Source of the DNA: a virus
Reading direction: 5' to 3' (one strand)
IMG/VR virus record: IMGVR_UViG_3300042988_001318
Span: 1 to 34,191 of that record
DNA length: 34,191 bases
Shown here: in pieces, positions 4,626-34,191 of the stretch
Layout: each line of letters starts with the position of its first letter
Position numbering within the stretch: the stretch's first letter is position 1
Made by a program: the position numbers and the translations under genes
Notes under the pieces: model-generated
What the model saw: only the letters and a program-made list of their open reading frames with translations
Database searches by the model: none
Told to the model about the DNA's origin: nothing

Positions 4626-4636
4626 GCTGGGCGCCT

Positions 4637-4813
4637 TCATGTTTTTACCCCCCGAATGACGTTCAGCTCGATCAGCCGCCCGCCGTACTCGTCTCGCAAG
4701 CGCTGCTTGCATTGCTCGACCGTCTCCCCTGGTCGGGGCATCTCGGTTGAGTGCCCTGGCAGCGGTTTTTTGTTTGAGCCCATCAGGCGGTAGCGCAGGA
4801 TTTCCACAGCCAT
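4637..4813 (-). CDS. Hypothetical small protein
   Basis: 58 aa from the ATG at 4811-4813; the frame stays open further upstream into the VRR-NUC gene, so the start is uncertain. GGGAA elements lie a few bases upstream. The sequence is charged, with a central PRPGETVEQCKQRLRDEYGG stretch that looks helical. No family is recognised. A 64-base gap separates it from the VRR-NUC gene, unusual in this tightly packed operon, which slightly favours a longer N-terminus. Confidence 0.55.
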   Translation of the reverse strand: MAVEILRYRLMGSNKKPLPGHSTEMPRPGETVEQCKQRLRDEYGGRLIELNVIRGVKT

Positions 4814-4877
4814 TCCCGTATCAGTTTCCCAATTGCGTTGAACCTTGCGTCTCTCAGGCGCCTTCCTGGGCCATTCC

Positions 4878-5312
4878 CTAGCCACTTCCCCGCTCAAATT
4901 TCCCACCGACGTAGTTTTCCAAGATTTCCCGCCCCTGATCGACCCCATACGCCACCTCGGCCCGGTAGCCCTGACCGGCGAGGCGGGCGAGCCACAAGCG
5001 TTGCTCCGTCCTGACCGAGCACCATGTGGATCCGGTCGGCTTCATCTCGACCGCCAGCCCGTGGTAGATCCCCGAGGGCAACAGCAGCAGCAGATCCGGA
5101 AACCCCGCCGAGACCCCCATTGCCTTCAGCCGGCCGGCCTCGCGCTTGCCGCGCAGGCCGCCGTTGGGGACGTGGATCAGCGAGCGGGCTTGCTGCGGAT
5201 AGGCCAAGCGAAACCACTCGACCACCGCCATCTGCTCGCGGTCCTCATGCCGCGGGGTCCGGATCCGCTTCGGCGCGGCGAAGAAGTCACGCTGCAGGGC
5301 GGTCTTAGCCAT
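4878..5312 (-). CDS. VRR-NUC domain nuclease
   Basis: 144 aa. It shows the VRR-NUC fold of the PD-(D/E)XK superfamily: an early EQ pair (E26, Q27), HVPNGG, AGFPDLL (D73), then VEMK (E89, K91) and a downstream Q-containing helix (EQRLWL). D73, E89 and K91 are the expected metal-binding and catalytic set. Stand-alone phage VRR-NUC proteins are thought to be structure-specific or Holliday-junction-type nucleases in replication or recombination. Its start overlaps the 63 aa gene by 8 bases. The length is typical of phage versions. Confidence 0.85.
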   Translation of the reverse strand: MAKTALQRDFFAAPKRIRTPRHEDREQMAVVEWFRLAYPQQARSLIHVPNGGLRGKREAGRLKAMGVSAGFPDLLLLLPSGIYHGLAVEMKPTGSTWCSVRTEQRLWLARLAGQGYRAEVAYGVDQGREILENYVGGKFERGSG

Positions 5313-11654: not shown

Positions 11655-11860
11655 CCCTCCCCACCGAGGACGAAGCCTATCGCGCCGGCTATGAAGCCGG
11701 GCGCGATGGCACCACCGACAGCAACACGCTCTTGGCTAACTTCGCCCTGCCCGCCCTGCGCGATGCCTGGGAGCGGGGCTATTGGGACGCCAAAGAAGGG
11801 CGGGACTCCGCAAATTTTGCGGAGTCCTCTAAAACAGCGAAAAACGGAGCCGCGCCATGA
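11651..11860 (+). CDS. Hypothetical small protein
   Basis: 69 aa, starting MTLPTEDEAYRAGYEAGRDG. Two short repeats of an aromatic-Gly pattern (YRAGYEAGRDG and ERGYWDAKEGRD) recall a small helical hairpin often encoded in phage early regions. It overlaps recT and rha by four bases each. No function is known to me. Confidence 0.6.
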   Translation: MTLPTEDEAYRAGYEAGRDGTTDSNTLLANFALPALRDAWERGYWDAKEGRDSANFAESSKTAKNGAAP

Positions 11861-12639
11861 AGAAGAAAACCCAACTGCCCAGCCTGGTGTTTATTGTCCA
11901 CGGCAAACTGTGCACCGATTCGTTGATCATCGCTCACGAATTTGGGCGCCGTCACGACAACGTGATGCAACTTATCGAGAAGCGATTAAACAGCAAAGAG
12001 GAAAAAATTCGAGCGTTTTATCTCCTCAACTTTAAGGAGGTCGATTACGTTGATCAGGGCGGCAGAACGTTCAAAAAGTACGTTATGACCCACCCCGGAG
12101 CGGGGGAACTGATCATGTCCTTCCAGGGCGACAAGGCAACGCTTGTGCGTATCCGTTTTCTGGACGAGTTCGCCCGCATGGATCGCGAACTAAAGCGTCT
12201 GGCCCGCAACCATTCCGACGCCGGATGGATCGAAGCCCGCGCCAATGGCAAGTGCATCCGCTCCACGCTGACCAGTGCCGTCCAATCGCTTGAACGATTG
12301 GCCGAGCAACAGGGCGGGAAGAAGGTTGACTCCCGCACCGGACAAGAAGGGCGCCACTACTACGAAACCACCACCCGGATGATCTACAAAGAGCTGTTCG
12401 GGGATGGCACCTTGAGCAAAGTTCGGGAGCGGTTGGATGCGCTGCATCTCACGTTCTTGTCGATCTGCGAGGAATCCTGCGCCCAGGAAATTGAACGGCT
12501 GTGCGAGCTGGGCATCGATTACCACACGATCTATGCCGAGGCGAAGAAGCGCGTCATTGCCACGGTGGAAGGGCTGTCATCCTCGCGCATTGCCAGCCGT
12601 CCAGAGTCGGTGCGGCTGGCCTGGGAGGCTCGGCCATGA
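11857..12639 (+). CDS. rha: Rha-family phage regulatory protein
   Basis: 260 aa. Residues about 15-115 fit the Rha domain: a mainly beta start, SLIIAHEFGRRHDNVMQLIE, FKEVDYVDQGGRTFKKYVMT and the helix GDKATLVRIRFLDEFARMD. The C-terminal half is a separate helical domain (YKELFGDGTLSKVRERLD) seen in several phage antirepressor-type proteins. Rha of lambdoid phages is linked to lysis-lysogeny control and to interference in hosts lacking IHF. Its presence, with KilA-N and Cro-like genes, points to a temperate ancestry. Confidence 0.85.
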   Translation: MKKKTQLPSLVFIVHGKLCTDSLIIAHEFGRRHDNVMQLIEKRLNSKEEKIRAFYLLNFKEVDYVDQGGRTFKKYVMTHPGAGELIMSFQGDKATLVRIRFLDEFARMDRELKRLARNHSDAGWIEARANGKCIRSTLTSAVQSLERLAEQQGGKKVDSRTGQEGRHYYETTTRMIYKELFGDGTLSKVRERLDALHLTFLSICEESCAQEIERLCELGIDYHTIYAEAKKRVIATVEGLSSSRIASRPESVRLAWEARP

Positions 12640-20370: not shown

Positions 20371-21774
20371 TTATCCGATCTGCCCGCCCGTTGTCGTCCC
20401 GCCCGCGACCGAGCCGGGGAAGGTTACGCCCGCCGCATAGACCACGCTGTTATAGGCCACGGCATAGCGCGTGCCGGTGGCGCTCCCGGTCCACGTCACT
20501 GCGGGCAGAAATAGTGTGCCGTTATAGGCTGCCGACACGAAAGCGGACGAAAAGGCAGGGGTGCCAGTGAGGGTGACAGCCACCGCCCCCGGCGCCGCAA
20601 TGCAGGCGGCCGTATCGACATAGAAGTGATAAGGCGCGTTGCCGACAATGGCGTAATTGCCGGCGATGAAAACCTGACTGCCGTACCGCGCGACGATCTG
20701 CCCATTGACGCAGGCCCCAAACTCTACCGTGTCAAGCGTGCAGCCCGCGTTATACATCAGGATCCCAGCCCCGCCGCTGGAAGCGATCCGCATACCGCGT
20801 ATGCGGTAGCTCGCCTCAATCGTGTCCCCGGTGATGGTGTTCGTGCTGCTGGTCACGACGACATTGCCCGGCGTCACCAGATCCCCCTCAATCGTGACGG
20901 AATAGGCCGCATTGCTGCAGCCGGTCAGGCTGCGAAGGTAGAAAGCGGCATAGGTGCCGGCCCGGACGTAAATCGTCACGGTCTGATAGCCCAGGTCGAG
21001 CGTGCCGGCCACTACATCAATGGCGCGCTGGATGGTGCGAAACGCCCCGCCCGCCGTGTCGGCCAGTCCGTTATTGGCGTCATTGCCATTGGTGCGGACG
21101 TAGTAAGCCACCGGGGCCGTCAGGCGATACCGCACCGCGCCCAGTCCGCCCGGCGACACGTCCCCGGTCGCGGTGATATTGCCCGCCACTTCGAGCTTCT
21201 GTGTGGGGGTGGTGGTGTCACCCACCCGGAGGGCGCCATTGATGTACGCGTTCCCGATAATCTCAACCGGCAGCGTGGGCACCGTCGTGTCGCCGATCCG
21301 CAGCCCTGGCGCGACGATGGGCTTGTCACTGGCCGTCTTGGTGCTTGAGATGTTGACGTTGTTTTGCGCGCCGCTGGCCTGGTTGCTTTGGATCGCCAAA
21401 TCTCCCGCGGCATCCTGCCAGATCAGGGCGCCGTTGCCGGTCGAGTCGATGGTTATTTCAGTGAACGTGGACGGAAACGCGGTGGTGTCCCCCACCCCCA
21501 CAATGTTGTCTATGGTGCGGATTGTTACCGCATCAGCATCAGCCAGCACGCACTTATATACGGTCCCGTTGGCCAGCCAGATCGGCGCGGGTGGCTCGCC
21601 GCGCGAGTTCAAAACGATCGGCGCCGTGTGCGCGGTGCCGGTGCTGGTCTGGTAGACCGTCGCCGGTGTGGTGGTGCCCGCCAGATACCACGTCAGCGTG
21701 CCGCCCACGAGGGGCAGCACGTCGTCGCTGAATTGTTCGTCCTGAAAGACGGGAGAAAGGTTGTAATCGGCCAT
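20371..21774 (-). CDS. Tail spike/fibre with head-binding-like N-terminus and beta-helix
   Basis: 467 aa. Residues 1-100 (starting MADYNLSPVFQDEQ, with GGTLTWYLAGTTTPATVYQT and TIDNIVGVGD) match the N-terminal anchoring domain common to podophage tail fibres. Residues about 150-200 hold repeated GLRIGDTT and ALRVGDTT elements of a fibre shaft. From about 215, YYVRTNGNDANNGL and FRTIQRAID open a pectate-lyase-type beta-helix that continues to the end. It should recognise, and possibly cleave, host surface polysaccharide. I see no catalytic residues I can assign. One-base TGATG overlap with the upstream gene. Confidence 0.8.
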   Translation of the reverse strand: MADYNLSPVFQDEQFSDDVLPLVGGTLTWYLAGTTTPATVYQTSTGTAHTAPIVLNSRGEPPAPIWLANGTVYKCVLADADAVTIRTIDNIVGVGDTTAFPSTFTEITIDSTGNGALIWQDAAGDLAIQSNQASGAQNNVNISSTKTASDKPIVAPGLRIGDTTVPTLPVEIIGNAYINGALRVGDTTTPTQKLEVAGNITATGDVSPGGLGAVRYRLTAPVAYYVRTNGNDANNGLADTAGGAFRTIQRAIDVVAGTLDLGYQTVTIYVRAGTYAAFYLRSLTGCSNAAYSVTIEGDLVTPGNVVVTSSTNTITGDTIEASYRIRGMRIASSGGAGILMYNAGCTLDTVEFGACVNGQIVARYGSQVFIAGNYAIVGNAPYHFYVDTAACIAAPGAVAVTLTGTPAFSSAFVSAAYNGTLFLPAVTWTGSATGTRYAVAYNSVVYAAGVTFPGSVAGGTTTGGQIG

Positions 21775-24281
21775 CAGCGGGTCATCCTGTTGTAAATCTC
21801 CGAGAGGATCCCGGTGCGGGCGCCACTCTGCAGGGCTGGCATCAAAGCCTCGGTTGACCGCAGGCGTCCCAGGTTCATCAAGCGGGCGCCCTCTTCGGGA
21901 TCGATCAGGCCGCGCTGAATCATCCGCAGCACGTCCACTTGTGCGGGTTTGGTCGCGGCATCGGCCATTTTTCCTGGCACTGACTGCAAGATGTTTTTTG
22001 CAAAGCCAGCAAGACCGGTGCGGGTATTATCCCCCAGCAACCCGCCCATGATGTCGTCAGAGATGATCTGGTTGACGGCCAGATTCTGAGCGGTGGCGCT
22101 GTTCACGGGAGCGCCCCCGGTGGTCAGCACATTGGCCCGCCGCTTCTCTTCCTGCGCCGCTTCAAAGGCTGCCCGTTGCGGCTTGGAGAGCTTCGCCCCG
22201 GCTTTGCGCTCGGCGCCTGCGATGTCGATCTGGTCGAGCTTGGCCCCGGATAGCGTCCGGTCCCCGTACAGTTGATCCGCGTCGGCAATGTTGCGCGCGG
22301 TGTTTTCGCTTTTGCCGACCAATTCCCGCCCCAGCTTTAGCCGGCCCTCGGCGCGCGCCATACGGGAGTAGCGATCAAGGAAGGGCTTAAACTCAGGCAC
22401 CGCGGCGATCAAGTCGTCATTCATCGCCGAGCGGATCTGCTGCCCTACTCGCTTCATGTCCGCCTTGCTGCCCGCGGTGGCGGTCAGCAGGTTTTCATAA
22501 ATGAGATCGTCCAGGCTTTGGCGGTTGTTCCAGAGCCGGGTAAAGTTGGTCCCTTCCTCGACCCCCGCCGCAGTCTTGGCGATCAGGTTCTCCAGCTTCG
22601 CATTGCCTTGGTGCCGTTTGGCCAGGTCCGCAAGGGTGGCTTGTAACTTGGTGGGCGCCACAGGCAACTCGGCCGGGTCGATGCCCTTCGCTGCAAGTTG
22701 ATCCTCAAAGGTCTGGCCGATGCGCTGCTTCACCATCCCGATGCGGTCGAGCATATCGGTGGTGCCCGCCTTGGGCGCCTTGTTCACCCGGTCGAGGGTG
22801 TCGCGGATGGCGCTATCCATCTGCGTAATTCGAACGGCGTTGACTTGATCCACACCCGCGTCAATGGCGGTCTGTGACGAGGGCAAGACTCGCTGTAACC
22901 GGGCAAGGCCTGGATCCTGCGTCACCTCGGCCAGCGTCGGCTTGGAGCCGGGGACCAACTCCCGATTGAAAGCCGGATCCGCCGCCCGTGCCGCTGCGGT
23001 GTTGGGCGCCGCGGCCTGCTTGTTCAGCACCCGCCCGGCGATCTTCTCGCGCCCGCCCGCGCTGAACGGGGCGGCCATGCGGCTGACCCCCGAGCCAACA
23101 GCCTGCGCGGTGCTGATGCCGACACCCGGAACCATCCCGCCGATGATGCCCGCCCCGATCTGCACCGGAACCGGAGCGCCCGCCTCGCGGGCAAGGTCGG
23201 AGGCACCCGAGGCGGACATGGCGGACAAAGCCTGCTTACCGGGGGCTGCGGCGAGAGTGTTTAGCCCGTTGGCGGCCATGCCGCCCGCAGGCGCGGCAGC
23301 GCCCACCATCCCCGCCAAACCCGCCCCCGAGGCTGCCCCCAGCCCGGCCGTCACCACCCTTTCCGCACCTGAGGCCGCTTGCGGGTTGATCCCGCCCGCC
23401 TGCAGCGCTTGATCCACATAAGCGCCGGTCGGCGGGAGGTAGTCCAGCGTGCCGGGGCGGATGGCGTTGACCCCTTTGGCAATCAGGTTCACCGGGGCGT
23501 TGATGGCATCCGCGGCCATCGTCAGCGGGGCGGATAACCCCTTCGCGGTCGAGCGAATCGCGGTCTGTGCGGTCGGGGACATGCCTGAGGGCTGGGCCTG
23601 CTGTTCATCCTCCCACACAAACCCCGCAGGCAAAGCCGAGCCACCCGGCGCAGGTTGTGCCTGCGCGTCTTCCCATTGGTAGCCCTGCGGCAGCATCACC
23701 CCGTTACCAGGTGGCGGTTGATCTGCCGCTTGGGCGGCCGGAATGATGGCATCGAATAAGCCACTCGCCGCTTGCTGGAAAATGTTGGGCGCGTACTTCT
23801 CGCGCATTCCCGCAACGTGCTGGGAGCTGCCCAAGTTCTTCATGACGCGCGGCACATATTTCTGTGTCTCCCGGTACGGAGGCACGCCCCCGTACTTTTG
23901 GACCGCACCGGCCCCGGCGTTGTAAGCCGCTGCCGCAAGTTCCGGTTTGCCAAACTGCCGCAACAGGTCGCCCAGGTGGCGCCCACCCGCAGGGATCGCT
24001 TTGTAAGGGTCTTGGAGGTCCGTGATGGTCTTCATCCCGTACCGGGCGCCGGTCTCTGGGATGAACTGCATCCGCCCGTAAGCGTTGGCCGGCGATCTAA
24101 CTCGGTTGCGTAACGCATCGTCCTTGATGTGGCCGGTCTCAGCGTCCGAAATCGCCTTGGTAAAGCCGGGGGGTAGCCCGTTGACGCGATCCGCTTCGGC
24201 ATACAGAGCCGCGTAATCCGGCTGCCCGCCCTGCGGCGTTTGCTCGTCTTCCCACACAAAGCCCGGAGGTAAAGCGCTCAT
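21774..24281 (-). CDS. Large ejection protein with N-terminal lytic transglycosylase (P22 gp16-like position)
   Basis: 835 aa. Residues about 22-150 form an SLT domain: catalytic E48 (SDAETG), GRMQF (69-73) and AAAYNAG (116-122). An 11-residue motif LPxGfvWEDeQ occurs three times (4-14, 197-207, 217-227), flanking the enzyme domain. Residues about 240-430 are Ala/Gly/Pro-rich and amphipathic, able to interact with membranes; 430-835 is long helix. By position and design this is an internal virion protein injected with the DNA that opens the peptidoglycan. ATGA overlap with the upstream gene. P22 gp16 is 609 aa, so this one is long. Confidence 0.8.
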   Translation of the reverse strand: MSALPPGFVWEDEQTPQGGQPDYAALYAEADRVNGLPPGFTKAISDAETGHIKDDALRNRVRSPANAYGRMQFIPETGARYGMKTITDLQDPYKAIPAGGRHLGDLLRQFGKPELAAAAYNAGAGAVQKYGGVPPYRETQKYVPRVMKNLGSSQHVAGMREKYAPNIFQQAASGLFDAIIPAAQAADQPPPGNGVMLPQGYQWEDAQAQPAPGGSALPAGFVWEDEQQAQPSGMSPTAQTAIRSTAKGLSAPLTMAADAINAPVNLIAKGVNAIRPGTLDYLPPTGAYVDQALQAGGINPQAASGAERVVTAGLGAASGAGLAGMVGAAAPAGGMAANGLNTLAAAPGKQALSAMSASGASDLAREAGAPVPVQIGAGIIGGMVPGVGISTAQAVGSGVSRMAAPFSAGGREKIAGRVLNKQAAAPNTAAARAADPAFNRELVPGSKPTLAEVTQDPGLARLQRVLPSSQTAIDAGVDQVNAVRITQMDSAIRDTLDRVNKAPKAGTTDMLDRIGMVKQRIGQTFEDQLAAKGIDPAELPVAPTKLQATLADLAKRHQGNAKLENLIAKTAAGVEEGTNFTRLWNNRQSLDDLIYENLLTATAGSKADMKRVGQQIRSAMNDDLIAAVPEFKPFLDRYSRMARAEGRLKLGRELVGKSENTARNIADADQLYGDRTLSGAKLDQIDIAGAERKAGAKLSKPQRAAFEAAQEEKRRANVLTTGGAPVNSATAQNLAVNQIISDDIMGGLLGDNTRTGLAGFAKNILQSVPGKMADAATKPAQVDVLRMIQRGLIDPEEGARLMNLGRLRSTEALMPALQSGARTGILSEIYNRMTR

Positions 24282-25585
24282 TGCGGTACCAATTGCCCAT
24301 TACGCACAATCATGCGCTGCCCGGTAGCGGGGTTGATTGCCACCCGGCCCTCGGGGAGTCCGCCCGTTGGGGCGGGCGCCTGCTGTTGGCCTTGCGCTGG
24401 CTGTCCACCCTGCGGCTGCCCGGTAAACGCCATCGGATCGGCGAACACCTCGGCCGGGTTCAGCCCCGCCTTTTGGGCGAGGGCGTCAAGGTTGCTCTTG
24501 CGAGCTTGATATGAAGACTCGTATTGCTGCATACGACGGCCGATGATGTTGGCGATCCCCGCTCGCGCATCGGGACCGAGCTTGCCTTCCTGCTTCAATT
24601 GCGAGTTCAGGTTGTTCAGCCATTGACTGAACGACGAGGCGCCCTGAATCGCGGCCAAATCGCCCTCACGCACGGAGCCGAGGTCGTCGAGGATGTTGGT
24701 CAAGCCGTAAATGATGTCCACGTCCGACTGTGGGTCCGTGCTTTTGATGGCACTCAGCACGGCATTGGCCTTGGGCAGTACGCGCTTGTAGGTCAGCACT
24801 TCCGGCGCGCTGTCGTGCTTGTCGATCAGCCAGCGGGCATCGCTGCGCTGCTGCTCGGTGAGCTGGGCTTGCCGGGTCTGTTGCTGCTGCTGTCCTTGTT
24901 GGGCGAGCTGCTGCTGTTGGTACGGGGTCGGCCCCAGCCCTTGCTGATAGGCGTTGATCTGGTTCGCCTTGCTCACGTCCCGCTGCATTTCCTCGTCGGG
25001 GTCTTTGTAGCCGCCCGCCTTGGCCGCTGCCATGATGTGCGGGAGCACATCCGGGTTGCCGGCTGCTTCCTGCAGTTGCCGCGCTACCTCGGGGTTACGC
25101 TCGCCCCAGGTCTTGGACCGGGCCATCAGGTAACCCGCCAAGGCTTGCGGGTTGGCGTTCGCTCCCATCGTTTTCATGTAGTGAGCCGCCCCCACGGCTT
25201 CCTGCTTGGCAATGTCGGCGTTTTTGCCCTCGTTCTCGATCTGCTTGCCTTGGGTATCAGCCCCGATCCGCCCGCCCTCGGCCTTGAGCTTGTTCACCTC
25301 GTATTGAGACTTAGCCAGCCCCATCGCGCGCTCAGGGTTGATCTTGTAGAGGGCCGCCAAACCTTGTTCTTGGTCGGGTCCGCCGAGGTTCGCCTTGACC
25401 GCTTCATTCCACTGCGATTCCTCTTCGAGCTTTTGCTGTTCGCGCAGGGCCAGTGATTGCAGCGCATCGGCTCGCGCCTGGGAGGTTTGCAGTTCTTGCA
25501 TTCCCATCATGCCTGACAGGAAGCCGCCCGCGATGTTTGGCTGCTGGAAAGCGCCGGGGGGTAAAGAGATGTCTCCGAATGGCAT
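24278..25585 (-). CDS. Putative ejection/internal virion protein (gp20-like position)
   Basis: 435 aa, almost entirely helical and very rich in Q, A and K, with a pure Q run region (QQQQLAQQGQQQQQ near residue 215). N-terminal GGFLSGMMGMQELQTSQARADALQ is typical of podophage internal proteins. The C-terminus is Pro/Gln-rich, ending in a short beta segment. It sits between two other ejection-type genes, like P22 gp20 (471 aa). No sequence motif proves it; role inferred from composition and gene order. Confidence 0.65.
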   Translation of the reverse strand: MPFGDISLPPGAFQQPNIAGGFLSGMMGMQELQTSQARADALQSLALREQQKLEEESQWNEAVKANLGGPDQEQGLAALYKINPERAMGLAKSQYEVNKLKAEGGRIGADTQGKQIENEGKNADIAKQEAVGAAHYMKTMGANANPQALAGYLMARSKTWGERNPEVARQLQEAAGNPDVLPHIMAAAKAGGYKDPDEEMQRDVSKANQINAYQQGLGPTPYQQQQLAQQGQQQQQTRQAQLTEQQRSDARWLIDKHDSAPEVLTYKRVLPKANAVLSAIKSTDPQSDVDIIYGLTNILDDLGSVREGDLAAIQGASSFSQWLNNLNSQLKQEGKLGPDARAGIANIIGRRMQQYESSYQARKSNLDALAQKAGLNPAEVFADPMAFTGQPQGGQPAQGQQQAPAPTGGLPEGRVAINPATGQRMIVRNGQLVPQ

Positions 25586-25589
25586 GGTC

Positions 25590-27035
25590 TTATCCTGAGA
25601 TGCTGCCGTTGCTGGTGTTCGTGTTGCCGCCGAAGGTGCCCCAGTTGTTGTTATTGTTTCCGCTGTTTGACTTCATCCACATCCCCGCAAGCCCCGCAAT
25701 GTTGTTGCCGAGGCCCGAGAGGGCCGAGTTATTCATCGCGGCTTGGTTCCAGGCGTTCTGACTCCCGGTGGTCGCGCCCCCGGTGTAGGTGCCCACACGG
25801 AGCCCGGTGTTGGCCTGCTTCATCCCGGCCGCGCTTTTTGCTGCGTCATAGCCCAGCCCGGCGAGGTTCATCAGAAAGCCCTGCCGCTGCAGTTGGCTTT
25901 TCGACGTGTTGTCGAAGTTGGCTTGATAGTTCTGAAGCTGCTGCTGGTTGATCAGGTTCTTGTATTGCTGGGTGCCGAAGTAAAGCCCCTGCTTGCGCGA
26001 CAGGTCCGCCTGGTCGGCGGCCTGCGCGGCGTTCCATTGGTTCATCATCGCTTGCCGGTTGGCGAGGTCTTGGCCGTAGGCGCCCTGATACAGTTGCCCC
26101 ATTGCCTGCCGGTTGGCCGCATCCTGCCCATAGCGTTGGGCGTAGGCTTCGAGCATCCCTTGCCGGTTCGTCATGTCGGCTTGGTTCGCCTGGTTGTATT
26201 GCGTCAGCGCGGCCTGCTTCATCGCTTGGTCGCGGGCAAAGGCGTCCTTGTATTCGTTGGCCGCGTAGTCCTGGGCGTACCGCTCTTGGGCTTTCAGTTG
26301 TCCCCCGCCCAGCACGCCCCCGCGGGCGGCCGCTAACCGGTCATTGGCTTGCAGGCCTTGATTCAGCCGGAATTGATAGCCGGGGTCGTTCTGGAGCTGA
26401 TCGCCTGAGTAACCCTGCAAGGCGTTGGTCAGATCGTAGCCGTACTGATCGCGGAAGTTGCCGGCGTTGTATTGCTTGCCCGCTTGCGAGAGGTCATACC
26501 CGACTTCATTCTTGAAGCGGGAGGCGTCGTATTCGGTGCCGACTTTCGAGAGGTCGTAGCCGTACTGATTCCGGAACCGGCTCGGGTCGTATTCTTTGCC
26601 CGCTTGCGTCAGGTCATAGCCATAGGTGTTTCGGAAGTCTTCCGGGGTCATCGAATCGTAGAGGTTAGCCAGGCTCCACCCCTCTTGCCCGATCGCCTTC
26701 CCGAAGTCCTCCGGGGTGTACTCCTTAAGAAACTGTTGCTGGCTGGTACCGGGGGCGAGGCCTTGCTGCTCGACGTATTGCTCCCAGTTGTAGGGAGTCA
26801 TGCTGCCGTTGTTTAACTCGTCTCTCGCTTGCCTAAACATGTCGTAACCACCCCAGGCCCAGGGGTTGAGGTAGTTACCGATCATCTTGTCGCTGTTCTG
26901 CAATTCCTTGCTGGACAGGCCGACGCCCTGATTGATCATCTTGCGAGAGGCGCCTGCCGCATCTCCCGAGCCAGCCATTGACATGCCGGCCGCTGCGACC
27001 GATCCCACTGCACCAGCAATTGCTGCGAACGACAC
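25590..27035 (-). CDS. Putative ejection protein with tandem 20-residue repeats (gp7-like position)
   Basis: 481 aa. The N-terminus (MSFAAIAGAVGSVAAAGMSM) is hydrophobic. Residues 133-232 are five consecutive 20-residue repeats of the type xFRNxYGYDLxxxGxEYDxS, the last degenerate. Residues about 285-355 carry a second, helical repeat of 18-19 residues centred on NRQxM. The tail is Asn/Gly/Ser-rich. Position ahead of the other ejection genes matches P22 gp7 (229 aa), though this protein is twice as long. Likely part of the DNA-translocating channel or its precursor. The DNA repeats occupy 26340-26639. Confidence 0.65.
   Translation of the reverse strand: MSFAAIAGAVGSVAAAGMSMAGSGDAAGASRKMINQGVGLSSKELQNSDKMIGNYLNPWAWGGYDMFRQARDELNNGSMTPYNWEQYVEQQGLAPGTSQQQFLKEYTPEDFGKAIGQEGWSLANLYDSMTPEDFRNTYGYDLTQAGKEYDPSRFRNQYGYDLSKVGTEYDASRFKNEVGYDLSQAGKQYNAGNFRDQYGYDLTNALQGYSGDQLQNDPGYQFRLNQGLQANDRLAAARGGVLGGGQLKAQERYAQDYAANEYKDAFARDQAMKQAALTQYNQANQADMTNRQGMLEAYAQRYGQDAANRQAMGQLYQGAYGQDLANRQAMMNQWNAAQAADQADLSRKQGLYFGTQQYKNLINQQQLQNYQANFDNTSKSQLQRQGFLMNLAGLGYDAAKSAAGMKQANTGLRVGTYTGGATTGSQNAWNQAAMNNSALSGLGNNIAGLAGMWMKSNSGNNNNNWGTFGGNTNTSNGSISG
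26340..26639 (-). repeat. Five tandem 60-base coding repeats
   Basis: Five in-frame 60-base units within the 481 aa gene encode 20-residue repeats with the shared core YGYDL. Copies 1-4 are well conserved at the protein level, the fifth is diverged. Unit number may vary among relatives by recombination. Confidence 0.8.
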
Positions 27036-27040
27036 GGGTA

Positions 27041-27511
27041 TTACTCCTGTTCAGCCGGCGCCAAGCGCCGGGCATCTTGTAACGGATCCACCACCAGCAG
27101 GTTCTCCAGGGCGGGAATATCGGTCATGCCCTCGGGTACTCCGTGCACCGTTATCCAACTGGTTTCGGTATGGCACAACACCGACCGCTGCGTCCCCGGC
27201 TCGGTGATCCAGATGCCGGGGGCTTCGACCTCGGCCTGTTTGCCGTCCTGATCCACCACTGTGCAGCGCCCGGTGAGGGCAATGGTGATGTGCCGGCTCT
27301 TGTGGAGCTTGGTCACGACACAGACGCCCGCGGGAACCGTGATCTTGCGCCCGTACACGCCGGGGACGTGGAAGTGTTCCAGTGGCGGGTCTACCTCTTC
27401 CAGTTCGCCCGCGGCAATCGCCGCAATCATCGCGCGCCCGAGGTCATTCGGTCCCGGCTTCGGGCGGAGGTCACCGCGTAGATACACTTCGCCTGGGTAG
27501 CAAAAGCCCAT
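27041..27511 (-). CDS. Cupin-like virion-region protein
   Basis: 156 aa from the ATG at 27509-27511 (TGATG overlap). The order HFHVPG, ITVPAG, SRHITIALTGRCTVVDQDG, VEAPGIWITEPGT, RSVLCHTETSWITVHG follows a cupin-type double-stranded beta-helix, with histidines where metal ligands often lie. Such proteins occur in podophage structural operons but their role is not settled. Here it lies between the gp10-like and ejection genes, where P22 encodes its tail needle gp26. Confidence 0.65.
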   Translation of the reverse strand: MGFCYPGEVYLRGDLRPKPGPNDLGRAMIAAIAAGELEEVDPPLEHFHVPGVYGRKITVPAGVCVVTKLHKSRHITIALTGRCTVVDQDGKQAEVEAPGIWITEPGTQRSVLCHTETSWITVHGVPEGMTDIPALENLLVVDPLQDARRLAPAEQE

Positions 27512-27735
27512 CACACCACCGCCCCCGTGGCATCGCGCCACAGTGAACCGTCGAACCAGATCGGCTTACCCAGATCGCTATCAAAGTACATCTGCCCGGC
27601 GAACAAGCCCACGGTCGGGCGTCCTACGGTTGGGCCTGCGGTGGGCAGTCTCAATGCCTGGTAGACCGCTTGGAACCACATCATCCACGAGGGCTGGCTG
27701 AAGGGGTCTCGCAGTGGCGGGGGGGGGATGCTCAT
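27511..27735 (-). CDS. Hypothetical small virion-region protein with C9 tract
   Basis: 74 aa from the ATG at 27733-27735 (ATGA overlap with the gp10-like gene). It begins MSIPPPPLRDPFSQPSW; codons 3-6 come from a run of nine C on the coding strand (27719-27727). The second half (VGLFAGQMYFDSDLGKPIWFDG) resembles short glycine-aromatic segments at tips of phage tail proteins. Similar small genes follow gp10-like genes in related phages, but no role is known to me. Confidence 0.65.
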   Translation of the reverse strand: MSIPPPPLRDPFSQPSWMMWFQAVYQALRLPTAGPTVGRPTVGLFAGQMYFDSDLGKPIWFDGSLWRDATGAVV

Positions 27736-29762
27736 GCTGTCTTCACCGTAGCCGCAATGATGGCAATCTTGACCGGATCCGAGACGCGGAGCTTCCAGGT
27801 GCGCCGCCAGGAGCGGCCCAGCCTGCGGAAGATCACGCGCCGGGTGTAATCGCCCTCGGCGCCAATTGCCCCGGTGACCGGCGAGCACCACGTATGCCCG
27901 GCATCATCAGACCACTGCAACATCAGCTCGGGCCCGACGACAGGGGCGGTGTCAAGGAAAGGCCCGGTCGGGACGTTAAAGGCGCCGTCATATTGCGCGG
28001 TGCCATTGGTAATGCGGATCTCGGCCAGGCTGCCCGTGAAGTACGCCACCAGATCAAAATTGGACCCGATCGTCAGCGGCGAAGCCGTGCCGAAATCGGT
28101 GGAAGCGGTCCAAGGCGTGCCCGGAACCCCGTTCAGGTAGAGATTGGTCACGCCCGCCTTCCGGCAAGCGGCGATGTGATGCCAGGCGCCCGCTGTGATG
28201 GTGGTTGAAATGCGGGTGCCCGATGCGAAAAACTTCAGCACCCCGTCCTCCACCAGCACAACGATGGCGGTCGCTACGGTGATGCTGCGGAAATCAAACA
28301 CAATGAGCTGGCCCACCACCGATTCGAAATAAACCCACCCCTCAATGGTGTAGTCGCCCGTGCCAAAGCCGAAACTCGCATCCTCGGCCACGGTCAGCGC
28401 GCCGGAGCTACCCAGCAGGATCGATGAACCGCCGAACTTGGCGCGCCCGGTATCCGTCTGCACGGTGCCAACGGGCGTGATGACATGCCCACCGACCGCA
28501 TCGGTGAAGATCACCCCACCCTCAGCCCCGTTGCCGTGGCAGAGTAGGACGACGTCGTCATAGAACGGGTTGGAGCGGTCCATCGTGCCGCCCCGTTCCA
28601 TGTCGATCTGCACCGACTGGTAGCTAATGAGCTTTTCATCAGTCCCCAGCGTCGGGCTGACCAGCTCCCGGATGATGGTTGAGCCGTCATCGGTGTAAAG
28701 ATCCAGCGACATGTTGTAAAGGCTGCCGTCAATTCGGCTGCCGACGACGTGCCGCCGATCAAAATAGGCATACGCAATGCCCCAATGGGCCCCACCGTCG
28801 CTCTGCCGCTCGTGCCAGGTCGAGGTCGTCAGGTCATAAACCCAAGTGGCCTCACCGCTCGGGAAGCTGATCACGTAGAAGACGTGACCTTCGGATGTGT
28901 AGCCGTAGGCTACTGCGTCATCCGTTCGCGGGTAGCGGGACCATTGGTATTCGACCGCTTCAGTGGATAGCCGCTCGGTCTGCGACCCCCCCGTGTTGGA
29001 CACCACGAAGCCCGCACCCTGGGGGGTGGTGGCCAGCCAGATGATCTGATTGCCCGTCTCACCCACCTTGGCCACCGATGCCGGCGCCAGGCAGCCGAGG
29101 TTTGACACCGCCCCATCGACGCGCCGGAACACGGAATCGGGATCCCCGGCGTTGTAATGAAGCTCAAGCGTCTGTTGCCCGAACACGTACAGCAGGCCGA
29201 AGGTCGAGGCCACCGCGACGATGTTGTCGGGGCCTGCCTCGGCCGCGTTGTAGTCGAGAGCGTTCCATGTGGAACCGTCGTACAGCGAACTGTAAAAGTA
29301 CGTATTCGTTCCCTGCGCGTTACAGATAAAGTAGCCGTCCAGAAAGCACACGGTATTGGCCACCGGCATGGTGGGAATGTCCGCAAACGTGTCAATGCTG
29401 GGCGTGTACAGGTGCCCGCCGATACCGTCCGTCAGGATCAATTGCGTGCCGTTGTGCGCCATCGAGACCGGCCCCACCGACGAGGCCAGTGTCCCCGCCT
29501 GGATGCGGGTGTAATCGGTCGCCACCTTGTACAGCTTCGGGCCGGCGACGACATAGAGATAATCACCCATGACCAGCATGCCGCGCACTGACGCCCCGCG
29601 CCTTTTCGGCGTGTTCAGCACCTTCAGCAACTCTAAGCCCGGCGTGCCCAGCACCACCGGGCGCTGATCGAGGGTCATGTGGGGGTACAAGTTCAGGTAA
29701 CGAACCGCGCCAGCGTTGACACTGCGCCCGGTCTGCTGGCCGACAAAGGGGATGATGGGCAT
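27732..29762 (-). CDS. P22 gp10-like tail-machine (packaged DNA stabilisation) protein with inserted LamG-like domain
   Basis: 676 aa. The beginning (MPIIPFVGQQTGRSVNAG, then RYLNLYP) and end (LMLQWSDDAGHTW, GDYTRRVIFRRLGR, KLRVSDPVKI) match the gp10 family, which plugs the portal-gp4 channel. Residues about 394-606 form a concanavalin/LamG-like module: VLLCHGNG, YTIEGWVYF, AGAWHHIAACR, LYLNGVPG, GSLAEIRI. Without it about 465 residues remain, close to P22 gp10 (472). The insert follows the strand VQIDMERGG and precedes LMLQWSDD. It would expose a possible glycan-binding domain on the tail hub. Confidence 0.85.
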   Translation of the reverse strand: MPIIPFVGQQTGRSVNAGAVRYLNLYPHMTLDQRPVVLGTPGLELLKVLNTPKRRGASVRGMLVMGDYLYVVAGPKLYKVATDYTRIQAGTLASSVGPVSMAHNGTQLILTDGIGGHLYTPSIDTFADIPTMPVANTVCFLDGYFICNAQGTNTYFYSSLYDGSTWNALDYNAAEAGPDNIVAVASTFGLLYVFGQQTLELHYNAGDPDSVFRRVDGAVSNLGCLAPASVAKVGETGNQIIWLATTPQGAGFVVSNTGGSQTERLSTEAVEYQWSRYPRTDDAVAYGYTSEGHVFYVISFPSGEATWVYDLTTSTWHERQSDGGAHWGIAYAYFDRRHVVGSRIDGSLYNMSLDLYTDDGSTIIRELVSPTLGTDEKLISYQSVQIDMERGGTMDRSNPFYDDVVLLCHGNGAEGGVIFTDAVGGHVITPVGTVQTDTGRAKFGGSSILLGSSGALTVAEDASFGFGTGDYTIEGWVYFESVVGQLIVFDFRSITVATAIVVLVEDGVLKFFASGTRISTTITAGAWHHIAACRKAGVTNLYLNGVPGTPWTASTDFGTASPLTIGSNFDLVAYFTGSLAEIRITNGTAQYDGAFNVPTGPFLDTAPVVGPELMLQWSDDAGHTWCSPVTGAIGAEGDYTRRVIFRRLGRSWRRTWKLRVSDPVKIAIIAATVKTA

Positions 29763-30464
29763 TTATGGCCCCGCGTAGACGATCCAGCGCCGGCCCTCGC
29801 CCGCCGTCCGCAGCATCGGATCCATCGCAATGGTGGGCGTGCGCTGGTTGATGCGCTTCAGGTTCCGCAGCGACTTCTCGGCCAAGCGCTTCAGGTCCGC
29901 CCCGGCTTCGATCTGGTATTCAGGCGCGAGCCGCAGGGCCAGGTTGTACCGGATGGCGTCAGCGTAGCCGGGTGGCAGACTGATGACGGAGTACAGCGTG
30001 TCGAAGCCCGTTAACGGCTTCTCCGCAACGGTGTTGATCGTGTTGCCCGTGGGGATCGGCCAGAGCCAGAGCTTGCCGAGCGGATAGTCGGGCTCGTAAT
30101 AGCCGTAGATCGGCCAGGCGGTGGTCAGGGTCTTGAGCCTGATGGCCTCGTAGTCGTCCACCCCGAGAAGGGTCAGCGGGTAATCGACCGTCGCCACCCT
30201 AACCGTGGCCTGCAGCAAGCGCGCTGGGCGCGCGCTGTTGAACGTGCCGCCGATCCCCCACGTGTGCGGGTTGAGGCTGGCCGTGAGGGTGAAGGTCTCC
30301 CTCGTCGCGTGGTAGAGAGTAAGGCCTTCCGTGGCCCACGATTCGAGCATCCATTGGAGCGCTTCAAGCGCATCCTGCGACTCTTGGTCAGTGAGAGTCG
30401 TATTCCCCGTGAGTACGTTGAGCGGCCGTAACGCCCCTTTGATCAAGTCCAGTGCGGTCGTCAT
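29763..30464 (-). CDS. P22 gp4-like head-tail completion protein
   Basis: 233 aa. The pattern is that of tail accessory factor gp4: MTTALDLIKGALRPLNVL, SQDALEALQWMLESWATEGL, then strand-rich ATRETFTLT and PARLLQAT, YGYYEPDYPLGKLWLWPIP, and a final helix LRLAPEYQIEAGADLK. gp4 binds the portal ring and bridges it to gp10, closing the filled head. The next gene starts right after the stop. P22 gp4 is shorter (166 aa); this longer form is common among relatives. Confidence 0.85.
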   Translation of the reverse strand: MTTALDLIKGALRPLNVLTGNTTLTDQESQDALEALQWMLESWATEGLTLYHATRETFTLTASLNPHTWGIGGTFNSARPARLLQATVRVATVDYPLTLLGVDDYEAIRLKTLTTAWPIYGYYEPDYPLGKLWLWPIPTGNTINTVAEKPLTGFDTLYSVISLPPGYADAIRYNLALRLAPEYQIEAGADLKRLAEKSLRNLKRINQRTPTIAMDPMLRTAGEGRRWIVYAGP

Positions 30465-30484
30465 TTCCGCTCAACGCTCCCAGG

Positions 30485-30655
30485 TTATTTCTTCGGCTTC
30501 GGCGCGGGCGCCTCGTCCTCTGCGGTTAGGTCCAGCACGTCTTGGACGGGTCCAAGCAGTGCGGCTTCCTCTTCAGCGTCCAGCACCGTGACCCCCTTGC
30601 TCGGGTCATCTGGATCGGTGCTGACCCACTTCGGGTATTCCACAAACTCGGCCAC
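30485..30655 (-). CDS. Small acidic protein, GTG start
   Basis: 56 aa, starting at GTG 30653-30655, two bases after the stop of the 111 aa gene, with sequence MAEFVEYPKWVSTDPDDPSK. The C-terminal half is highly acidic and ends APKPKK. It would otherwise leave a 190-base gap in a packed operon. Unknown function; perhaps a head completion or assembly cofactor by position. Confidence 0.6.
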   Translation of the reverse strand: MAEFVEYPKWVSTDPDDPSKGVTVLDAEEEAALLGPVQDVLDLTAEDEAPAPKPKK

Positions 30656-30657
30656 GA

Positions 30658-30993
30658 TCAGCCCTCGAAGGCCGTCTTGGTCGCCACCGGGCGGAACACG
30701 CCAATCAAGTAGGCTTCCGAGGCGGTCGGGGTGACGGCCGAGCCGGTGGCATTCACGAAGGTGACGGCCAAGGTATCCGCGGCTTTCACACGGGCACCGA
30801 CAATGCCGATGCCGGCTTGAGCCGTGGGTTTATTGATCGAGACCACGAAGTCTCCGACTGCCAAGCCCGAGACGGTCAAGTCCTGCTCGGCTGTGGTGTT
30901 GGCCCCGACTTGCGCCGGGGAGAGCGTCACGGTGATGACGGAAAAGCCGCGCTGCTCTAGCAGTTTGGCGCTGACGATGTTGGGAGCTGCCAT
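30658..30993 (-). CDS. Small beta-rich virion protein, candidate head decoration/completion
   Basis: 111 aa, starting MAAPNIVSAKLLEQRGFSVI, with a GAGG ribosome binding site. The strands SVITVTLSPAQV, AEQDLTVSGLAVGDFVVSI and ADTLAVTFVNATG indicate a small beta-barrel or Ig-like protein, as in phage decoration or hub proteins. It is the first minus-strand gene after the coat gene, separated by the antisense endonuclease. Function inferred only from place and fold. Confidence 0.65.
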   Translation of the reverse strand: MAAPNIVSAKLLEQRGFSVITVTLSPAQVGANTTAEQDLTVSGLAVGDFVVSINKPTAQAGIGIVGARVKAADTLAVTFVNATGSAVTPTASEAYLIGVFRPVATKTAFEG

Positions 30994-31019
30994 TTTGATG
31001 TCCTCAATTGATCCAATGC

Positions 31020-31038
31020 GGTAAAATACGCTTTTACC
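31020..31038. promoter_or_regulatory. Inverted repeat upstream of antisense endonuclease
   Basis: GGTAAAA-TACGC-TTTTACC is a perfect 7-base inverted repeat, starting 17 bases before the endonuclease ATG. It contains TAAAAT, a possible -10, but no good -35 is present. It may be an operator for the endonuclease gene. Confidence 0.35.
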
Positions 31039-31054
31039 TAAACAGGGTTAGACG

Positions 31055-31780
31055 ATGTTGGAATCGTTCGGTCTGCTTCCTCATTCCCACAAGCGCGTTG
31101 CGATTGGTGATCGCTTCGACCGCTTGACCGTTCTCGCCATCGGCAAGACTGCCGACAAGAAACCGGCCTACTACGCCATTACCGCCTGCGACTGCGGGCA
31201 CCCGCCCAAGCGGGTGACGGTCAGTTCCCTTTTGCTGGGAACCTCCCGCAGTTGCGGGTGTTACGCCAAAGACGTGAACACCACACACGGCTGTTGCCCC
31301 AAAAAGGGCGCCAGCCCGCTTTACAACGTCTGGCATGGCATCAAGCACCGCTGCACCAATCCGAAAAACTCGAACTACCGTTGGTACGGTGGTCGCGGCA
31401 TCACGATCTGCCCGGAGTGGCTGAACGTCGCGAACTTCATCCGCGACATGGAACCCACTTACCGGCCCGGTTTGGAGCTTGACCGCATCGACAACGACAA
31501 GGGGTATTCCCCCGACAACTGCCGCTGGGTCACGCACCGCACCAACTGCAAGAACACCCCGACCGCTCTGCTCATTGAGTACAACGGAGAGGCTAAGTCC
31601 CTTTACGAATGGAGCCAGTCCACCGGGCTGTCCGTGACTACGATCCGCGCTCGACAACGGTACGGGTGGAGCGTCGAAAAGACGCTGACCACCCCTGCCG
31701 ATCCCAAGCGTGTTCGTTCCGGTCATATCGCTGCGCTCGCTAGGAAGCTCAGAAGCCTAGAGGCCGAACTAGCCGATTAG
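31055..31780 (+). CDS. HNH-type homing endonuclease, antisense behind coat gene
   Basis: 241 aa. N-terminal zinc-type Cys set (CDCG 45-48, SCGC 66-69). The core is LYNVWHGIKHRCTNPKN, WYGGRGITICPEWL and LELDRIDNDKGYSPDNCRW followed by THRTNCKN, the signature of a common phage HNH family (D143, D146, N155, W158). A C-terminal NUMOD/helix-turn-helix segment follows (KSLYEWSQSTGLSVTTIRARQ). The gene is on the opposite strand to all neighbours, and its last 12 bases overlap the 3' end of the coat gene. CAGGG acts as a plausible ribosome binding site. Clearly a mobile intergenic insertion. Confidence 0.85.
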   Translation: MLESFGLLPHSHKRVAIGDRFDRLTVLAIGKTADKKPAYYAITACDCGHPPKRVTVSSLLLGTSRSCGCYAKDVNTTHGCCPKKGASPLYNVWHGIKHRCTNPKNSNYRWYGGRGITICPEWLNVANFIRDMEPTYRPGLELDRIDNDKGYSPDNCRWVTHRTNCKNTPTALLIEYNGEAKSLYEWSQSTGLSVTTIRARQRYGWSVEKTLTTPADPKRVRSGHIAALARKLRSLEAELAD

Positions 31781-33034
31781 CTTCACCGCCAACTCAGGAT
31801 ATATTGCCTTCCACCCGTACAAGATATCAATACGGGTTATGTGCGTATCTGTCATAGCGTCATAATACCCTTTCACGATACGCAGGGACAAGCCAGCCGC
31901 CTTACTCGAAGCCCTCGCAGACTCCCCGTTACCTTGCGGCAATGGCAGATCGGCGCAGGCCAGCGTGTAAGCGTTGCGATGGAAAGCCAAGTTGACCGGG
32001 TAGCTGTTGGTCGCCCCATAGCCTTGCAGCGAGGTCAAAGTCGCGTTGTTCACGAATGCGCCGCTGGAGGCGTAGACGTTCTGGAACGGCCCAGAAAACA
32101 CGGGATACGGCAAGATTTTGAGCGACGTTCCACCCGAGGTATAAGCCTCGGTGACAACGAAGTTCTTCAGCACGCCAGTGGAGACCCGCGACTGCGGATT
32201 GACGGCGTAGCAGTCGGAGAACGTCACGCTGGTCCCCGCCGACAGGTTCGCGCCCAGGCTGTTGATCGTCAGCGTAAACGGCGTGGTTGCGTCGGATTGA
32301 ACCGTGTTGGCCCCACCCTGCACCCCGTTGATGGTGTTGGTCTTGGCGCCGCTCAAAGCTGTAGCGTTATGGGCGATGACGTTCTGATCCCGCACGAAGT
32401 TGAAGCCCAGCACCGAGTCTGCCACGTAGCCCTTATCGAACTGCCGCGAGATTTTCGTGGGGTTGTTGAACAGCGAGCTGTGCGCCTGCACGATGCCGGT
32501 GTTCGTCGCGGGCGAGATGACGCAATAACGGTCCTCATCCATCGGGGCCGCTTCCTCATCGAGCCTCTGCCCAGCCGCCAGAATCGCCGCGATCGCCTGC
32601 GCGCTGGTCGGGGTGCCGATCAGTTGGCCCGGGGTGCCGACTGCGTTGTGGGTGTAGAGCGACATCTGGCTCAGGCCGTCATAGTCGATTTTGTTCGCAA
32701 TCGCGGCCATCGCGGGCGCGATGATCCTCTGTTTGAAATCATCCATGCTCAACGCCAGATCGGCGCTGGTGAACGCCATCGCCACATTAGCCTGCGTGGT
32801 CAGCATCACCGGAACGTAGGTTTCCACCGAGGCCTGCGGCTCGATCACCGGTCCGGTCCCGACCGTGTAACGGGTCGGTTTGCGGACGTTCAACGTGGCG
32901 CCGATCTTGGCGCCCGAAACGGCGAATTGGTCGTCATAGGCACGGTTGACGTGCTTGCTGAAGCCCAACATATTTTCGAGGATCTCAAGAGCCTCAAAGG
33001 TAATCTTGCTGGTAGTGAGTAATGAATTAGCCAT
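31769..33034 (-). CDS. Major capsid protein, P22 coat (gp5) family
   Basis: 421 aa, close to the 430 aa of P22 coat. The N-terminal region (MANSLLTTSKITFEALEILEN, KIGATLNVRKPTRYTVGTG, NVAMAFTSADLALSMDDF) and the central PATNTGIVQAHSSLFN and RQFDKGYVADSVLGFNFVRDQN follow the family; FTLTINSLGANLSAGTSVTF lies where P22 coat carries its inserted I-domain. It assembles with the scaffold protein into a T=7-type procapsid, inferred from the family. A good ribosome binding site (AAGG) precedes the ATG at 33032-33034. Confidence 0.9.
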   Translation of the reverse strand: MANSLLTTSKITFEALEILENMLGFSKHVNRAYDDQFAVSGAKIGATLNVRKPTRYTVGTGPVIEPQASVETYVPVMLTTQANVAMAFTSADLALSMDDFKQRIIAPAMAAIANKIDYDGLSQMSLYTHNAVGTPGQLIGTPTSAQAIAAILAAGQRLDEEAAPMDEDRYCVISPATNTGIVQAHSSLFNNPTKISRQFDKGYVADSVLGFNFVRDQNVIAHNATALSGAKTNTINGVQGGANTVQSDATTPFTLTINSLGANLSAGTSVTFSDCYAVNPQSRVSTGVLKNFVVTEAYTSGGTSLKILPYPVFSGPFQNVYASSGAFVNNATLTSLQGYGATNSYPVNLAFHRNAYTLACADLPLPQGNGESARASSKAAGLSLRIVKGYYDAMTDTHITRIDILYGWKAIYPELAVKLIG

Positions 33035-33046
33035 GATCGTGTCACC

Positions 33047-33973
33047 TTACTTGCGGGCGGAATGTTTCAACGCGCGCCACTTGTCGTAGTCCCCAGCCTG
33101 CTCCAGCGCTTCGAGCTGCGCGTCGAAGTTGACGGCAGGCGCCGCACCGGACCCACGGAGCGGGCTGATCGGAGCGGGGGCTTTGGATACAGGTCGGGGC
33201 GTGGCGGGCGGTTCTTGGGGCGTCAAGGTGCTGATGAGCTGACCGAGGCGGACGGCTGCGTGCGCCGGGCGCATCCGCGCCAGCGCTTGCAGTTCTTGCG
33301 GCGAATTTGCCAAAAGATAGGCAAGCTCTGGGCCTTGCTCGTGCGTGGCCAGGATCTCGACCACGCCGGGGTTGCCCTGAAGGAGCGGCGCAAGCCGTTC
33401 CCCGGTGACGACCTCGTTATAGTCGGGATGGCGGGCGCGGGCTTGGTCTTCCCGAGTACGTATCTCGGCAACGGTCCGAACCCGTTCCTGTTCGGCTTGG
33501 AAGGCAGCTAACTCCTGGCGGGCTTCATGCCGTGCCATGTCGCGGAGGTAGTTTCTGTCCAGCTCCCCGTCTTGGTAATTCTCGGGCGAGGGAGGGCCGC
33601 CCGATGCCTGGGCTTCTGTTGGGGCTTGCGAGGGTTGCCCGTTTCGCTCCAAAAGCGCTAGGGCGCGATCCAATTGCGCCTGCATCGCGTCGGCCCGCCT
33701 TTGCGCATCGCTGCGTTCGCGGACTAGCTCATCAATCCTTTTCTGCACTCCACGGGGTGGCTTGGCTTTCGCTTCGGCTTCCGTGGTTTCCTCAGTGGAC
33801 GATTCTGAGTCTTCCGGTTCTTCGGAAGGGGTTGCGTCCGGTTCGGCCGGCTCGGTCGGAGTTTCCTCGTTCACGGTCACGAGGCTTTGCGCATAAGCCA
33901 CTTGATCCGCGGGCGTGGTCACGACGATTCGAGGGGCTTCCGCCCCGTCTGATACGGGTAAGGTTTCAGTCAC
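33047..33973 (-). CDS. Scaffolding protein (P22 gp8-like position)
   Basis: 308 aa, near P22 scaffold (303 aa). Acidic low-complexity N-terminus (about 35-70), helical core rich in Q, E, R and A (about 76-190), and a C-terminal helix pair ending DKWRALKHSARK, basic like the coat-binding end of P22 gp8. The start is GTG 33971-33973, because the preceding ATG runs at once into TGA; GGAG lies six bases upstream. It is the first gene of the structural operon and directly precedes the coat gene, as expected for a scaffold that directs coat assembly and leaves before packaging. Confidence 0.8.
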   Translation of the reverse strand: MTETLPVSDGAEAPRIVVTTPADQVAYAQSLVTVNEETPTEPAEPDATPSEEPEDSESSTEETTEAEAKAKPPRGVQKRIDELVRERSDAQRRADAMQAQLDRALALLERNGQPSQAPTEAQASGGPPSPENYQDGELDRNYLRDMARHEARQELAAFQAEQERVRTVAEIRTREDQARARHPDYNEVVTGERLAPLLQGNPGVVEILATHEQGPELAYLLANSPQELQALARMRPAHAAVRLGQLISTLTPQEPPATPRPVSKAPAPISPLRGSGAAPAVNFDAQLEALEQAGDYDKWRALKHSARK

Positions 33974-34053
33974 ATGGTTCTCCAGCGAAGGGAGTAGCGC
34001 GCCTCACGGCGTGGGGGAGCCCGGTTTGTGGTGATCCGGTAACACTCGCGCGA

Positions 34054-34084
34054 TTTATATCACACCTGGTAGGGGAATACTCAA
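34054..34084 (-). promoter_or_regulatory. Extended -10 promoter of structural operon
   Basis: On the minus strand: TTGAGT (complement of 34079-34084), 19-base spacer, TGA-TATAAA (-10 at complement of 34054-34059, with TGn before it). The long spacer is offset by the extended -10. Start of transcription is expected near 34047, about 75 bases before the scaffold GTG. Confidence 0.6.
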
Positions 34085-34088
34085 TCAG

Positions 34089-34104
34089 CCACTACATCTA
34101 GTGG
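34089..34104. promoter_or_regulatory. Inverted repeat just upstream of structural promoter
   Basis: CCACTA-CATC-TAGTGG, perfect 6-base arms, ends five bases upstream of the -35 element. Its position suits an activator or late regulator site. Confidence 0.45.
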
Positions 34105-34123
34105 TTGGCGGTTTCCATCAGGC

Positions 34124-34150
34124 AAAAAAAAGCCCCGGAGGGCCGGGGCT
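34124..34150 (-). terminator. Strong intrinsic terminator, leftward
   Basis: AGCCCCGG (34131-34138), loop AGGG, CCGGGGCT (34143-34150); on the minus strand the eight-base stem is followed by eight T (complement of 34124-34131). It stops transcripts arriving from genes to the right (presumably portal/terminase) just before the structural promoter. Confidence 0.85.
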
Positions 34151-34191
34151 CAACTCATGTAAGGAGAAAAACGGGGGTCTTGATTCTACCC

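Follow-up and report, generated by a model that had tools for sequence, protein, structure and literature searches.

A LamG-type module inserted at the platform loop of a gp10-family tail hub in an uncultivated virus

The tail hub protein gp10 is among the more conserved tail proteins of podophages and is regarded as pure plumbing, concerned with DNA retention. What a lectin-like domain might be doing in the middle of such a protein is the question raised by one gene of the uncultivated virus IMGVR_UViG_3300042988_001318 (hereafter “this phage”), whose whole record of 34,191 bases is the window analyzed here. The gene, on the minus strand at 27732-29762, is a single uninterrupted reading frame with an ATG start, and its 676-aa product is termed LamG-gp10. 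A sequence-only reading had described a LamG-like module spliced into it and proposed that the module perhaps serves weak surface attachment before spike binding. The features discussed below are collected in Table 1.

Table 1. Coordinates of LamG-gp10, its parts and its neighbours in the window
Feature	Position	Strand	Basis
Tail hub / head-closure (Hc3) gene of the gp10 family with a LamG module inside it, 676 aa	27732..29762	-	phrog_578, Foldseek
gp10 N-part (residues 1-391), with the N-terminal platform strand(s), a seven-bladed-propeller core and, last, platform strand 379-388	28590..29762	-	11-gp10 alignment, AF2 model, T7/SU10 domain scheme (PMC6702177, PMC9509320)
N-side linker, residues 391-402, predicted flexible	28557..28592	-	pLDDT below 50
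Inserted segment, residues 392-610, in place of a short platform hairpin loop (consensus GVGLTTGQGSDP)	27933..28589	-	alignments; sister L017 without insert
LamG / concanavalin-type domain, residues 397-605	27948..28574	-	Laminin_G_3, profile span, AF2 pLDDT
gp10 C-part, residues 611-676 and stop: remaining platform strands (PELMLQWSDDAGHTW...VSDPVKIAI)	27732..27932	-	alignment; 98.5% identical to L002
gp4-like head-tail adaptor gene, directly upstream of gp10	29763..30464	-	P22_Tail-4, SU10_adaptor, phrog_637 Ad3
74-aa protein gene beside gp10, ATGA overlap with gp10, no assigned function, 98.6% identical in L003	27511..27735	-	
Short tail-fibre/adhesin-like gene downstream of gp10	27041..27541	-	phrog_24280 (E 4e-24), phrog_12032

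Identity of the hub and limits of its insert

Both flanks of the module belong to one gp10-family protein. A profile search assigns residues 4-394 to phrog_578, “head closure Hc3”, with an E-value of 4e-100, and residues 611-676 align column by column with the C-termini of gp10s in an alignment of 11 members. Taking out the insert leaves about 457-463 aa, where ordinary gp10s have about 454-480 aa and the sequence-only reading had estimated 465. That reading had also called the product a portal-plug protein; its family assignment stands, while the “plug” label does not, since gp10 is the tail hub and head closure. The plug of P22 is the needle gp26, which gp10 holds. The gene lies in a P22-type structural module consisting of scaffold, a P22-type coat protein (PF11651), the gp4-like adaptor, gp10, and fibre-type and ejection genes. 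Another gene of this phage, at 20371-21774, encodes a candidate tailspike of 467 aa, which has no PHROG match and resembles right-handed beta-helix proteins weakly (E 0.006). P22 gp10 and Sf6 gp8 (phrog_578; PDB 8eap, 8u10, 9jg6, 7sg7) have in common with LamG-gp10 the 5-4-10 gene order, the fold and the sequence family of the N- and C-terminal parts, but where LamG-gp10 carries 219 residues including the LamG domain, P22 gp10 makes only a short turn (STGVAQYAD, about residues 398-406).

The junctions of the insert can be read exactly from the 11-gp10 alignment. Homology to gp10 ends at Gly391 and picks up again at Pro611, the sequence running ...VQIDMERG(391) - insert - P(611)ELMLQWSDDAGHTW... 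where relatives read ...LQVDMQTGVGLTTGQGSDPQAMLQWSDDGG, so that one C-terminal platform hairpin loop (DMQTGVGLTTGQGSDPQ-MLQWSDDGG) has been swapped for the insert. Pfam Laminin_G_3 is found at residues 451-587 with an E-value of 6.1e-14 within the whole protein, and at 4.2e-15 (56.6 bits, cut-off 27.6) when the insert segment is searched alone; the LamG profile extends over residues 397-605. The segment also has matches among PHROGs for LamG modules that are carried by proteins of tail and baseplate. The insert is a complete Laminin_G_3/concanavalin module of residues about 396-609, and the clean internal insertion placed at residues 394-606 by the sequence-only reading was correct to within a few residues.

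The AlphaFold2 (AF2) model of LamG-gp10 (mean pLDDT 86.1, pTM 0.71) predicts that the insert folds as a separate all-beta domain, a beta-sandwich, mostly at pLDDT 80-97. Low-confidence linkers lie on either side, at residues 391-402 and about 601-610, suggesting a tethered domain, and the platform strands 379-388 and 612-618 border the insert on its two sides. The C-terminal platform is, in the T7/SU10 scheme, a beta-sandwich contacting the adaptor (PMC6702177, PMC9509320). Foldseek searches with the model returned the hubs of the cyanopodophages Pan3 (9vyg_M, TMt 0.85) and Pam1 (7eeq_1, 0.81), P22 gp10 (0.78-0.80; 8eap_D 0.80) and Sf6 gp8 (0.78). The two cyanopodophage hubs are the nearest solved relatives in both sequence and fold, although the platform loop of Pan3 is without an insert. 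The LamG part of an initial AF2 model matched an arabinanase domain, 5hon_A (TMt 0.69 over 210 columns). Trypanosome trans-sialidases, which also combine a propeller with LamG, were considered as a functional clue and set aside as a coincidence of architecture, the whole-length TM being about 0.24.

Distribution and divergence of the LamG insert

No deposited phage covering 80% of the LamG-gp10 query was found. Among the IMG/VR matches listed, the architecture occurs only in L001, a contig of 9926 bases identical to 24266-34191 of this phage, and in a 77%-identical version carried by L002 and L003, which come from two other metagenomes. Pattern-based scans with the C-terminal half and the LamG profile gave no further LamG-gp10 lineage among the matches listed, and rarer ones may exist. 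An assembly or annotation artefact fusing two genes deserves practically no credence; we regard it as ruled out by the single uninterrupted frame, the presence of both halves of one gp10, the same architecture in the 77%-identical contigs L002 and L003, and the purifying selection described below. LamG is missing from almost every gp10 homologue; it is not present in P22 or Pan3, nor in any other gp10 recovered outside these contigs. On the predicted fold and on this distribution, neither of the two outcomes that the sequence-only reading had named as refuting, failure to fold as a separate domain and presence in all gp10 homologues, applies. L017, which the tree places as sister (SH-aLRT 100), is the nearest empty-site relative; it is 47-49% identical (49% in the core), its neighbourhood is shared with this phage, and its loop is empty. 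The closest named phage, Rhodoferax phage P26218 (KP792623, gp10 39% identical), has the same neighbourhood and likewise no insert.

Comparison with L002 indicates how the insert has evolved. Identity is 86% in the N-flank, 59.6% in the insert and 98.5% in the C-flank, with NG86 dN of 0.126, 0.376 and 0.035 and dS of 0.77, 1.33 (near saturation) and 0.41, respectively. dN/dS is thus 0.16 in the N-flank and 0.09 in the C-flank, and about 0.28 in the insert. Of the segments compared between this phage and its 77% relative, none is more diverged than the insert, the others being gp4 (99%), the fibre and major capsid protein (MCP) (89% each), the scaffold (82%) and a 435-aa protein (69%). The LamG insert is under purifying selection yet fast-diverging: across 40% divergence at the amino-acid level, the domain of some 210 aa remains whole and in frame with this dN/dS, which argues for selection on it. 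That said, dS is also raised in the insert, and recombination may therefore account for part of the divergence. Such divergence is what would be expected of a surface-recognition part.

In the SLT-domain ejection protein (21774-24281), the first 302 residues are 100% identical to L003:11119-12024 and the DNA is 99.2% identical over 1042 bases, the remaining structural genes being 69-99% identical to L003, which suggests a recent exchange. L003 has a regulator gene of the Rha type (Phage_pRha, E 7e-24; 4204-5001), wedged between gp4 and gp10 and overlapping the gp10 start, whereas in this phage a Rha gene lies elsewhere, at 11857-12639; an exact 25-bp stretch (11805-11829 of this phage) is common to both.

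The best sequence relatives of the LamG domain (43-47%) are likewise internal domains, found in marine T4-like “baseplate wedge”/beta-helix proteins (phrog_13163 group; L177-L189) and in a Septimatrevirus tail protein (SCUT-S3), but these carriers are unrelated proteins of other phage groups. Within the marine proteins (L177-L189, L193, L205) LamG sits at a common place. Marine T4-like phages were considered as donors and rejected, as this identity is too distant to name one.

The platform loop as a recurrent insertion site

The sequence-only reading regarded such an insertion as unusual, which is true of the LamG cargo and not of the site. A profile scan gave 227 full-length gp10 loci in 137 clusters (90% core identity), and platform-loop inserts of at least 20 aa are present in 34 of these clusters; 10 have inserts at “site A” in the first half of the propeller, 2 have them elsewhere and 93 have none. 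Members of the gp10 family recurrently carry insertions at the platform loop, and LamG is a rare instance among them. Insert frequency depends on the origin of the loci: 41 of 75 in the first profile scan, 6 of 77 in a scan centred on another branch, 8 of 61 among records of cellular genomes and 1 of 10 among named phages. On a quick, approximate gp10 tree the insert label needs 12 changes, at least 8 of them forced by well supported branches, so that platform-loop inserts appear to have been gained or lost repeatedly. Pairs of gp10s with 94-98% identical cores differ by a clean insertion of 99 or 201 bases exactly at the loop. Such pairs (L054/L277 vs L105, L328 vs L071, L061 vs L050) show recent gain or loss of TESGDxL-type pieces.

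The cargo is diverse. One type consists of repeat-like TESGDxL pieces of 27-72 aa. Most loop inserts are short and repeat-like and carry no recognised domain, which means that the loop may simply be permissive. A surface-type module, BspA-type LRR_5 (E 8e-14), occupies the same loop in a prophage gp10 of Acinetobacter haemolyticus (L116:3001-4715), on a contig that ends inside the gene. A possible dockerin-like piece in L052 and L058 stayed below threshold, at 15.8 bits against a cut-off of 22.9, and is not claimed; L068 has a Gly-rich replacement of its C-terminus (Gly_rich_2, E 1e-8). In Acinetobacter silvestris (L121:2886-5197) and A. halotolerans (L147:2976-5211) gp10 is even split at the loop. 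The first reading frame encodes the gp10 N-part and, at the platform loop, about 250 aa without a match, after which it ends; the second (about 65 aa) starts with MEPxLxLxWSDDNGHTW, comprises the last platform strands and has its own RBS-like sequence. A terminator-like hairpin, CCACCTTCGGGTGGTTTTTT, lies between the two in L121. At site A (profile positions about 85-150) the inserts are mostly large, with a few of 28-29 aa; L100, L142, L153, L154, L156, L158, L162, L163, L165 and L170 hold unclassified pieces of about 80-320 aa there, at profile positions about 115-150.

Such variety might mean that LamG is a largely neutral passenger on an exposed hairpin tip, with no strong function. Very different inserts at one point, pairs with 98.4% identical cores that differ in having one, and the split Acinetobacter gp10s all fit this idea, which we nevertheless judge improbable given the selection on the LamG domain noted above. 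A broader idea, which we put forward tentatively and hold to be rather less probable than not, is that the gp10 platform hairpin is a general, actively exchanged display socket for unrelated modules (LamG, BspA-type LRR, short repeats, perhaps dockerin-like). The hub would then have a host-recognition ring of its own alongside fibres and spikes, and binding at the surface might be coupled directly to the opening of the gate.

Possible role of the LamG module in adsorption

LamG-gp10 extends a known practice, the decoration of virion proteins with additional domains, and no paper on a gp10 with a lectin insertion was found among the literature searched. In lactococcal 936 phages, carbohydrate-binding modules on Dit, tail-tube and neck passage proteins bind host cells (PMC6669499). 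These are likewise accessory modules on structural proteins, although the phages are siphophages, the carriers differ and host-cell binding is demonstrated there. The head-tail adaptor gp83 of DEV (Schitoviridae) has an outward 101-aa lectin-type insertion (PMC10925440) and is thus another podophage neck/tail-core protein with such an insert, whereas its carrier (a gp4-like adaptor) and its domain are different. The crAss001 muzzle gp44 and the SU10 nozzle gp17 carry Ig-like domains that lie between propeller blades 2 and 3 or within them (PMC10172136, PMC9509320); they resemble LamG-gp10 in having inserts in a nozzle fold, but theirs lie in the propeller and LamG lies in the platform loop. 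Site A of the gp10 family is perhaps equivalent to the place between blades 2 and 3 where SU10 and crAss001 have these domains.

We would picture LamG-gp10 as a hexameric hub of the P22 gp10 type, sitting under the gp4 adaptor and shutting the DNA channel. Six LamG domains would then be present per hexamer, if the stoichiometry of P22 applies. Since six 22-kDa domains are too big for a channel such as that of the related SU10 nozzle, 25-31 Å across, they would be expected on steric grounds, the model being that of a monomer, to point away from the flank of the hub, each on its two flexible linkers. Their most likely ligand there would be a glycan (or surface protein) belonging to the envelope, capsule or slime of the host, held by weak binding with avidity, and the outcome would be a reversible first contact or an orientation of the tail ahead of the dedicated fibres or spikes. 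We consider it somewhat probable that six outward lectin-like modules give weak accessory adsorption in this manner, and the surface-type LRR_5 module at the same loop of another gp10 is counted in its favour. The attachment role proposed by the sequence-only reading is plausible and has close precedents, while binding and exposure are inferred. The fold alone is no proof of ligand binding, as LamG folds also act in protein-protein contacts, and reach to the cell surface is uncertain because the insertion is in the head-proximal platform, away from the membrane-proximal tip.

The position of the insert leads to another explanation, in which LamG is a structural or docking element clamping the hub to the capsid, the adaptor or the base of a fibre or spike within the virion. 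The platform is the part that meets the adaptor (PMC9509320), the fibre of T7 docks on the outside of gp12, between its propeller and its platform (PMC6702177), and insert domains have structural roles in the crAss MCP and the SU10 nozzle (PMC10172136, PMC9509320). A clamp, however, should co-evolve with its conserved neighbours, and the insert is 60% identical between relatives whose gp4 and C-flank are almost unchanged. The low-confidence linkers suggest a tether, and the sister phage L017 manages without LamG, so that we hold a clamp to be unlikely.

A further alternative is that the target is not a host receptor at all. Adhesion to environmental surfaces has been put forward for Ig-like and carbohydrate-binding domains that virions expose. 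Variable tail-tube domains are discussed in PMC9022992. By analogy, LamG could bind particles, mucus-like glycans or cell debris and raise encounter rates, although we would give this very little weight. The steric argument and the precedents of the 936 phages and the DEV adaptor are the reason why accessory adsorption is favoured over clamp, passenger and environmental adhesion alike.

A recurrent insertion loop that gains or loses its cargo between near-identical hubs would imply that the hub, too, is a place where adsorption specificity is tuned, and this would help to explain the odd extra domains met with in environmental phages. The platform loop is a naturally tolerated insertion site, for which a sister with an empty loop exists.
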